Assembly: GCA_030615365.1 (NCBI GenBank)
Contig: JAUWZM010000108.1
Coordinates: forward strand, 1 to 7,203
DNA: 7,203 nt
Reading direction: 5' to 3'
DNA from: Candidatus Aerophobota bacterium
GTDB taxonomy: Bacteria; Aerophobota; Aerophobia; Aerophobales; B3-G15
The position numbers and the translations under genes were made by a program. The notes below the pieces were generated by a model. That model was not told the DNA's origin and ran no database searches. It was given only the letters and a program-made list of their open reading frames with translations. Below, in pieces: positions 3,490-7,203 of the stretch (the first letter of the stretch is position 1; the number at the start of each line of letters is the position of its first letter).

Positions 3490-3514
3490 CTCGGCAGGGC
3501 AAGCCGAGGTTTTT
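3490..3514 (+). terminator. intrinsic terminator after the GH127 gene
   Basis: CTCGGC (3490-3495) and GCCGAG (3503-3508) form a GC-rich 6-bp stem with a 7-base loop, followed after one G by five T residues (3510-3514). It starts 12 bases after the stop codon, the expected place to end the glycosidase transcript. Confidence 0.85.
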
Positions 3515-3575: not shown

Positions 3576-3583
3576 GGCAATTG
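3576..3583. repeat. left target-site duplication of the MITE
   Basis: GGCAATTG directly abuts the left terminal inverted repeat and recurs identically, in the same orientation, directly after the right one (3818-3825). This is the mark of an 8-bp staggered cut during insertion. Confidence 0.8.
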
Positions 3584-3600
3584 GTAACAGGTAAGTTTTC
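3584..3600 (+). repeat. left terminal inverted repeat of the MITE
   Basis: GTAACAGGTAAGTTTTC. It differs from the right end at only two positions (8 and 10 of 17) and starts with the GTAA typical of IS66-family termini. Confidence 0.8.
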
Positions 3601-3657
3601 CTAAAAAGTAAGGGAGATGGAGCTTTGGGTATCCCTACGGGAAACCTTTTTTGGCGA

Positions 3658-3679
3658 AGAGAAAAAGGGGATTTTCTCT
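3658..3679 (+). repeat. hairpin inside the MITE, left interior
   Basis: AGAGAAAA (3658-3665) and TTTTCTCT (3672-3679) form a perfect 8-bp stem around the loop AGGGGA. It is one of the local arms inside the foldback element. Confidence 0.6.
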
Positions 3680-3688
3680 AAAGCTAAC

Positions 3689-3749
3689 AATGTAGTGTAA
3701 ACCTTCAGGTCTGCCTAAATTTATCAGGCCTAAAGGCCTGAGCTACATT
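3689..3749 (+). repeat. nested hairpin at the centre of the MITE
   Basis: AATGTAG (3689-3695) pairs with CTACATT (3743-3749). Inside it TCAGGCC (3724-3730) and GGCCTGA (3735-3741) form a perfect 7-bp stem with a TAAA loop. A second TCAGG at 3705-3709 could compete for the same right arm, so two folds are possible. Confidence 0.6.
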
Positions 3750-3800
3750 TGAGGGATAAAGACGAGGTTGGCTATCCGTGGGATGCCCAAAGCCCTTTTT

Positions 3801-3817
3801 GAAAACTAAACTGTTAC
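3801..3817 (-). repeat. right terminal inverted repeat of the MITE
   Basis: On the - strand this reads GTAACAGTTTAGTTTTC, matching the left terminus at 15 of 17 positions. The right duplication GGCAATTG follows without a gap. Confidence 0.8.
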
Positions 3818-3825
3818 GGCAATTG
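3818..3825. repeat. right target-site duplication of the MITE
   Basis: GGCAATTG, identical to 3576-3583. Removing the element and one copy would rebuild an uninterrupted pre-insertion site. Confidence 0.8.
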
Positions 3826-5877: not shown

Positions 5878-5897
5878 AGATAAATGTCCATTTATCT
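5878..5897 (-). terminator. AT-rich hairpin overlapping the transposase stop codon
   Basis: AGATAAAT (5878-5885) and ATTTATCT (5890-5897) form an 8-bp stem around GTCC. On the - strand it begins inside the TAG stop (5896-5898) and is followed by TCTCATTTTTACC, so it may be a weak terminator for the transposase. The stem is almost all A-T. Confidence 0.4.
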
Positions 5898-7203
5898 ATA
5901 TATTTACTGCATTAGCTACAACTATATCAAGAATTAGACGCTTCTCGCCTTGTTCTTTGAAAATTTTCTTAAGATTTACCCCGGCAGCGGTAAATAAAGC
6001 CTGAAGACGAGATTTTCTTTTTCCTTTGTATCTTGTTTTGCGAAGACCATGACGAATAAGCTCGGATATCTTCCTTTCTATGGGTGGACGTATCTTGTTA
6101 TAAATCTCTTTAAATGTTTTAGTTCTCTGTATCTTCCTCGCCTCTTGCAGATACTCCTCATAAGGGCCTACTTTAATAGTCCTTCCAGTATTTTTAGCAT
6201 GGGTACACTCATTTCTTTTAGAGCAGTTACTGCAAGTCTCTTTGGAGAAAACAAAGGTCTTGGTAACCGCTCCTTCAGCATCTTTACTCCTGTAGCATTT
6301 CTCAGCGACTTTTCCTTCTGGGCACACTACCTTCTCATTTCTAACATCTATATCAAATTCTTCCTTACTCAGTTTTCCTGTATCTATCACCGGAGGAACC
6401 TTACTGATAAGTTCAGTCTTTTTGCTACTCATCTTTTTTCGCATCTTACCTGAGCCATAGGCACCATCTCCACATAAAGATTTTGCTTTTACTTCAAATT
6501 CCTCTTTAGCTTCATTGATTAGTGGCTCTGCCATATCTCCATCAGGACAATTTCCGGGGGATACATCTATGTTGGTGATAATATCCGAATCTATATCTTT
6601 AAGGACATGGGTTTTGTATCCATTGAATTTACCAGACAAGGATTTTCTGCCATGACGCATTTCAGGGTCAGTAGTGGAGATAACACGGTCTTTGGCAACA
6701 TCCTTTCTTATCTTAGGTTTATCTTTCTTATCTTTTTTTATATTCTGGGAAACTATTTTAGCTAAAAGATTAACAGTACCTTTTAACTGAGTATCTACAT
6801 TCTCCTTGTCAACATCAACATGCGATAAGACTTTTTTTACATCAGAAACAAGTAAGGAAAGTAGTTCCTGACGTTCTTTCTTATCATTCCAATTAATTTT
6901 TGGTTTGGGATCACCTTTGTCATAAGCTTTTAAAGAGAGATTCATTTTAGATTTTGTCTTCTTATCCACAAAAGAAATGATATTTCTTATACCATCTCTA
7001 AGAAGCTCATAAGTGTCTTTGACAGCTCCTGCTCCAAGCATAGGGGTAGAATCTATTACCAGATTTACTTCTTTTTTTAGAAGCCCCATCTTTTTTGCAA
7101 GTTCCAGTGTTTTTTTAAAGATCATTTTATCTTTGTTATTGATAAGAAGACGAGCTCGAAAGTAGACTAACAAAGAGCGGTCAAAACCTTCATAGCCTAT
7201 GGG
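5896..7203 (-). CDS. IS1182-family DDE transposase, N-terminus outside the window
   Basis: This reads right to left and is still open at 7203: the codons before the TTG at 7173 (P-I-G-Y-E-G-F-D-R-S) continue the DUF772-like N-terminal region, so the true start is beyond the window. Residues are numbered from that TTG. The three acidic residues of the DDE core fit V-I-D-S-T-P-M (Asp41), C-G-D-G-A-Y-G (Asp236) and P-P-I-E-R-K-I-S-E (Glu366). G-A-G-A-V-K-D-T-Y-E-L-L-R after the first Asp and R-H-G-R-K-S before the second are typical of IS1182 transposases, as is the Cys cluster C-S-N-C-S-K-R-N-E-C-T at about 317-327. The visible frame has no stop or frameshift through 435 codons, so the copy may be active. 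It is very Lys-rich, fitting an AT-rich host. It converges on dhaKL. Confidence 0.9.
   Translation of the reverse strand, partial: PIGYEGFDRSLLVYFRARLLINNKDKMIFKKTLELAKKMGLLKKEVNLVIDSTPMLGAGAVKDTYELLRDGIRNIISFVDKKTKSKMNLSLKAYDKGDPKPKINWNDKKERQELLSLLVSDVKKVLSHVDVDKENVDTQLKGTVNLLAKIVSQNIKKDKKDKPKIRKDVAKDRVISTTDPEMRHGRKSLSGKFNGYKTHVLKDIDSDIITNIDVSPGNCPDGDMAEPLINEAKEEFEVKAKSLCGDGAYGSGKMRKKMSSKKTELISKVPPVIDTGKLSKEEFDIDVRNEKVVCPEGKVAEKCYRSKDAEGAVTKTFVFSKETCSNCSKRNECTHAKNTGRTIKVGPYEEYLQEARKIQRTKTFKEIYNKIRPPIERKISELIRHGLRKTRYKGKRKSRLQALFTAAGVNLKKIFKEQGEKRLILDIVVANAVNI
5896..7203 (-). mobile_element. IS1182-type insertion sequence, partial; ends not resolved
   Basis: The transposase defines an insertion sequence whose other end lies to the right of the window. 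Its left end must lie between dhaL and the transposase stop (5715-5895), but without the opposite terminus no inverted repeat can be matched, so only the coding core is given. The AT-rich stretch 5788-5895 shows no gene. Confidence 0.6.

Follow-up and report, generated by a model that had tools for sequence, protein, structure and literature searches.

What is the 234-bp sequence that lies between a GH127 gene and dhaK in the 7,203-nucleotide stretch of DNA analysed here (the window), and why does it stand where it does? The original prediction took it for a MITE with an 8-bp target duplication, of IS66 origin and fairly recently inserted. We find that it belongs to a mobile family with inverted ends, target duplications and further copies in related genomes, the members of which lie mostly in gene leaders in a single orientation. 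Its ends are of two distinct kinds, here called L and R, and the R kind mostly faces gene starts, an arrangement that is new.

The element occupies positions 3584–3817 of the window, starting with GTAACAGGTAAGTTTTC and finishing as the reverse complement of GTAACAGTTTAGTTTTC, the two being identical at 15 of 17 positions. The octamer GGCAATTG directly abuts both edges, as the left (3576–3583) and right (3818–3825) copies of the target duplication detected by repeat scan, and has no third occurrence in the window on either strand. When exact 8-bp direct repeats were sought, with copies at most 2000 bp apart and directly bordering 17-bp inverted ends that mismatch at two positions or fewer, this was the sole such pair in the window, and 0 of 200 first-order Markov shuffles of the window held anything comparable; the predicted length, ends and duplication were therefore exact. 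From left to right, the L end (GTAACAG-GTA-AGTTTTCCTA; 3584–3603, plus strand), typed by the G at its position 8, leads into a conserved L arm (3604–3663, plus strand), blastn matches over about 3584–3660 linking this side to copies in the genomes G301, G303 and G306. A hairpin in this arm (3627–3647, plus strand), followed by a T run at 3647–3652, is terminator-like in the L-to-R reading; the terminators returned by a stricter terminator scan do not include it. An inner hairpin segment (3692–3753, plus strand) recurs in G305 (L207, 87%) at a place that showed no element ends. By folding, a segment of the R arm (3776–3793, plus strand) is complementary to 3621–3640 of the L arm, the arms being complementary beyond their ends, with gaps. 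The R end (GTAACAG-TTT-AGTTTTC, read inward; 3798–3817, minus strand) is of a kind defined by TT at positions 8–9. The 234 bp contain no open reading frame as long as 60 aa.

The R end faces outward towards dhaK, the start of which is 222 bp off, and the L end lies 109 bp past the GH127 stop. The neighbours comprise a GHL6-type glycosidase, the GH127 protein, DhaK, DhaL and a transposase with DDE_Tnp_1 domains, called IS1182 family from its relatives. This IS1182-type transposase (5896–7173) is truncated by the window end, with 425 aa against about 530 aa in relatives. Between the GH127 gene and the element, directly past the former, lies a terminator-like hairpin with a T run of its own (3490–3508).

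The closest named relative of the window transposase is labelled Candidatus Aerophobetes (78%); the best GH127 match stands at 76% and the best DhaK match apart from the window's own at 61%. Scanning genomes with the window's IS1182 protein yielded no relative, and entry to relatives came through a GH127 alignment to a sequence titled Candidatus Atribacteria (L121, in G001). Among 291 relatives of G001 the transposase matched in three, as pieces at 69–71% in G077 and at 31–34% in two others. The 17 genomes of G077's phylum, which is probably Aerophobetes, form our focal set. Copies were read from stretches fetched around matched places in these draft genomes rather than from whole genomes, and gene calls for placement follow a crude longest-ORF rule.

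The prediction that the element would not be single-copy was borne out by both the 250-bp query and the end pattern, each of which matched further copies in relatives. The query matched 8 of the 17 focal genomes (E ≤ 0.01), with 15 matches in G301, 21 in G303 and 19 in G306, many of them short, and none of 50 genomes of G001's phylum. With at most one mismatch, GTAAYAGNTNAGYTTTNCTA gave 76 matches in 11 of the 17 focal genomes, compared with three for a backwards-read control, and the end pattern reached 22 copies in G306, 17 in G301 and 12 in G305. When no mismatch was allowed, it was found 33 times among 337 relatives of G301, in six genomes that all belong to the focal set, the control giving 0 among the matches listed. 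In viral contigs, the single-end pattern matched at least 120 stretches, none of the 120 listed having a partner end plus duplication; a two-end pattern had 0 matches there, and sharper patterns found one and two stretches, unpaired. Plasmids gave no match.

From 46 candidate pairs, some nested or overlapping rows of which were taken out by hand, we retained 24, the window included, with at most four mismatches at both ends and a length of at most 460 bp. These elements span 51–279 bp. Nine of the 24 carry exact 8-bp duplications, all different, when 0.0005 would be expected by chance; another has a single mismatch in its duplication, and the remaining 14 have at least two. Including by hand L255, which needed this since its R end reads TCT, brings the exact duplications to 10 of 25; L255 is 448 bp long and encloses an inner unit of 68 bp, with TAAGAAAC at three places. 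Over 11 of the 8-bp targets, positions 5–7 are almost always A or T. That other copies share these ends and carry their own exact duplications bears out the reading as a MITE with an 8-bp target duplication, and none of the outcomes named by the original prediction as refuting it was observed. The intact duplication in the window does suggest a fairly recent insertion. Two loci have unusual arrangements. At L255/L262 (G294:C86), the three copies of TAAGAAAC flank the 68-bp element and a 380-bp unit, resembling a tandem duplication or a double insertion at a single target; at L273 (G306:C211:1–118), the contig starts as a perfect palindrome, each arm of which has an L end, probably an assembly fold-back.

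A possible empty site, the only one seen and belonging to a copy other than that of the window, is found ahead of trpS, which is adjacent to a MerR-like gene (assigned by eye) and tRNA-Pro in six focal genomes. Apart from these six, an R end lies 7 bp ahead of trpS in G306. Among the six, the gap in G305 contains an R end and other repeats, with no L end found there; that in G301 is longer, with no element seen, and those in G294, G295, G299 and G300 are short and element-free. Absence from the trpS gap of these four relatives counts against a rival explanation, in which the sequence would be a conserved regulatory RNA leader and not a mobile element. Placement in leaders in a single orientation would suit such an RNA, as would the strong folding of the window copy, which exceeds that of shuffles on both strands (z of −5.8 and −7.5), and three hairpins of 51–55 bp in G224 (L211, L218 and L224), which have both ends and stand ahead of gene starts without duplications. 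The exact, differing duplications in 9 of 24 elements refute it as a whole explanation, however, and the genes downstream are unrelated. In the end stems of 24 elements, own partner ends pair at 13.83 of 17 positions and swapped ones at 13.95 (p = 0.88); because own partners pair no better, no selection is seen on the hairpin of the ends, which show none of the covariation that the original prediction had named as the mark of a structured RNA. Folding of 16 hand-picked L arms gave no consensus fold, and the only Rfam match with E up to 1 across the window scores far below gathering and lies elsewhere in the window, the element itself having none. We consider an RNA leader very improbable. The G224 hairpins could be old or domesticated copies, and domesticated copies could act as leaders.

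Returning to the mobile element, we typed 95 ends as 52 R and 39 L, leaving four that were neither unused. Typing rests on position 8 (and on 9 for R), such that L and R differ there by definition, leaving positions 9–10 free in L and 10 in R; these free positions agree, reading TA in nearly all 24 L ends and T in 21 R ends. At position 5, C prevails in L (16) and T in R (18). Pairing of L with R among the 46 candidates holds by construction, one end of each kind having been required; pairing without this requirement yielded 11 elements plus one nested unit, all 12 having one L and one R end by eye. Between the ends, the interiors are variable, containing other repeats of the GTAGCCGCAGGC and CGTCATTGCGAG types. 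A CGTCATTGCGAG...GCAATCTC repeat stands next to the R end inside many elements (L249, L257, L268, L285, L286, L287, L289 and others) and a GTAGCCGCAGGC hairpin repeat occurs inside other elements, the two being nested families of their own.

The two kinds of end face different surroundings. When the closest gene up to 600 bp outward is considered, 40 of 52 R ends face a start, 5 a stop and 7 no gene; 10 of 39 L ends face a start, 25 a stop and 4 no gene. Once the window and three viral loci are set aside, a start is faced by R in 38 of 42 cases (stop in 4) and by L in 9 of 33 (stop in 24). Against the background probability of facing a start, 0.52 by count or 0.54 by length over 254 intergenic gaps of the fetched loci, the bias is significant for R (p of 9e-8 to 4e-7) and for L (p of 0.004 to 0.002), and for R it still stands at 1e-5 under an assumed background of 0.60. 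Many R ends sit 5–40 bp ahead of a start codon. Among 25 complete elements, the R end faces a start in 22, a stop in 2 and neither in 1. The window copy obeys this rule.

Strong promoters, defined as sigma-70-like matches at 10 or more of 12 positions, are distributed unevenly around the ends. Outside L they point in at 12 of 37 ends (shuffles, 3.2%), and in these 12 cases the −10 match lies 5–88 bp from the L end, at no fixed distance. Outside R none of 48 points in. Promoters pointing away are also enriched outside both L (6/37; shuffles, 4.1%) and R (6/48; shuffles, 3.2%), a point against the proposal made below. Inside R, 9 of 49 ends have a strong promoter pointing out (shuffles, 2.4%) and 1 of 49 has one pointing in; inside L there is 1 of 37 in each direction. 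For three of the nine outward matches inside R (L211, L250 and L306), the element is so short that the match is in fact the promoter beyond its L end, which leaves 6 of 49 R arms with an outward strong promoter of their own (L216, L237, L243, L251, L253 and L259). In the window copy neither the L end nor the R arm shows a strong promoter, and the stretch from the R end to dhaK contains a weaker match (9 of 12). Among the 16 hand-picked L arms, 14 contain a T run of at least five, preceded by hairpins of −3 to −17 kcal/mol, and two have no T run; with no consensus fold among them either, the case for a terminator is a weak one.

Selection or oriented insertion could each have produced the bias, and the data do not separate them. 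The R end faces starts and stops in a ratio of 9 to 2 where the duplication is intact within one mismatch, and of 13 to 0 (with one facing neither) otherwise; the greater bias among decayed duplications is in the direction that selection predicts, with a difference that is not significant. Oriented insertion, by a transposase that discriminates between the two ends and places the element next to promoters in a single direction, would make the bias a product of transposition itself. It fits the bias already present in young insertions (9 of 11) and the consistent difference between L and R ends, and has precedent in TnGBS, ISLre2 and some ISKra4-group elements (PMC3942029). The known cases keep a fixed distance, however, whereas promoter distance here scatters over 5–88 bp, and at 25 of 37 L ends a strong promoter is lacking on the outer side. 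We regard oriented insertion as a rather unlikely cause of the bias.

Which transposase would move the element is a separate question. The IS66 family has inverted repeats beginning GTAAGCG and 8-bp repeats (PMC11946415), and the present family shares its GTAA-initial ends and 8-bp duplications. Most IS66 ends read GTAAGCG or GTAACCG, however, whereas the present family reads GTAAYAG and has no transposase. ISDge4, of the single-ORF ISBst12 group of IS66, has the ends GTGACTACTCAGCA and GTAACTGCTCAGCA (PMC12898284), and the latter, which covers 12 fixed positions of the present pattern, departs from it at two. We compared positions 5–12 with an IS66 end matrix drawn from 18 ends of nine loci, five of them without exact duplications; relative to random 8-mers, the R end of the window falls in the top 1.3%, the R variant in the top 2.4%, the R consensus in the top 8% and the L consensus in the top 9.6%, a weak likeness past GTAA. 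Of the predicted IS66 origin, the GTAA ends and 8-bp duplication stand, whereas the likeness beyond GTAA is weak and the IS66 domain PF03050 is found in 0 of 17 focal genomes (search control positive in 4 of 14). Among 386 wider relatives of G301, 41 carry PF03050. Among 30 IS66 loci, four (L397, L401, L404 and L409) combine exact 8-bp repeats with GTA-initial ends and three gave other, chance-like rows. No full-length element with identical ends came to light, and no autonomous partner with matching ends appeared in the fetched stretches or at the transposase loci of these partly fetched draft genomes. Because draft assemblies lose repeated genes, the absence of a transposase is weak evidence.

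A mobiliser from outside IS66, for example an IS256/Mutator-type transposase, is the principal alternative. PF00872 is present in 7 of 17 focal genomes, compared with 0 of 17 for PF03050, and IS256 members give 8- or 9-bp repeats (PMC3189936). GTAA ends combined with 8-bp repeats form the IS66 pattern, however, and a facing pair of these ends is absent from all 16 PF00872 loci, as it is from all 28 loci of PF01609, a domain found in 8 of 17 focal genomes. The nearest likenesses at the PF00872 and PF01609 loci have three mismatches and are the wrong way round (L392) or partnerless (L391 and L396). Two candidates were rejected: IS1182 as the mobiliser, the G077 loci L201 and L204 having no such ends within three mismatches; and, less firmly, a string in L392, L382 and L385 as an end, since it follows the transposase stop and reads away from the gene. 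PF06782, which we take to be the ISLre2 transposase, is found in 0 of 17 focal genomes, its control being silent as well (0/14), so that this absence carries no weight. Because IS256 also gives 8–9-bp repeats and occurs in the focal set, we have lowered our weighting of IS66; a mobiliser of IS66 type remains likelier than any other single family, at close to an even chance, and one from outside IS66 falls somewhat short of that.

We propose that a non-autonomous DNA transposon (MITE) entered the gap between GH127 and dhaK, duplicating 8 bp. A DDE transposase acting in trans, likelier of IS66 type than of any other one family, would recognise the distinct L and R ends and insert the element into AT-rich 8-bp targets. 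Most of the copies examined lie, as the statistics show, in a leader with the L side towards a promoter or upstream gene and the R side towards the next gene start. Selection against other placements would account for most of the bias: in leaders the element may be harmless or useful, and copies placed otherwise would be lost. In the L-to-R reading, the L arm, as a putative terminator, may halt read-through, and a minority of R arms may supply an outward promoter, as the predicted matches suggest. The proposal as a whole, a MITE mobilised in trans, perhaps by an IS66-type enzyme, and placed in leaders mostly through selection, is in our judgement evenly balanced between right and wrong.

A bolder extension, which we think distinctly unlikely, would make the family a phylum-wide mobile leader cassette that enters leaders one way, its direction set by a transposase reading the ends relative to an active promoter, with a terminator on the left and, in one subfamily, a promoter on the right. 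If true, many unrelated genes would have been rewired by one mobile element. Since most of the copies lie before genes and point in the same direction, they may influence how those genes switch on. In any case, a poorly known and mostly uncultured group gains a mobile-element family of its own, with duplications suited to counting insertions.

The open-access literature, with subscription papers mostly outside the search, gave no recognised account of Aerophobetes MITEs or of IS66-type MITEs so placed. Correia elements of Neisseria have other hosts and other ends than the present family. They are MITEs that often lie directly upstream of genes, some carrying promoters or sitting between promoter and gene (PMC10969869), and the present family differs in that one kind of end consistently faces the gene start. 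IS66 and orientation do not occur in the accessible part of that review, and the accessible part of PMC3189936 describes two MITEs and two unnamed IS66 pieces, with the MITEs not attributed to IS66.

The BOX, RUP and SPRITE repeats of pneumococcus resemble the present family as small repeats, sometimes nested, with variable interiors; some are transcribed in leaders, and SPRITE is terminator-like (PMC3049150, PMC10969869). They are enriched between convergent genes (PMC3049150, Table 1), whereas the present family lies mostly before gene starts, and its consistent facing of those starts departs from what is reported for them. A third comparison is with TnGBS, ISLre2 and some ISKra4-group elements, which enter in a fixed direction beside sigma-A promoters, a property attributed to the dissymmetry of their two repeats (PMC3942029), and which share with the present family a set orientation at promoters and unlike ends. 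They insert 15–17 bp upstream of the promoter with the right end adjoining it, whereas here the strong promoters lie outside L at 5–88 bp. Set beside these systems, the present family makes it testable whether transposase targeting or selection brings small elements into gene leaders.
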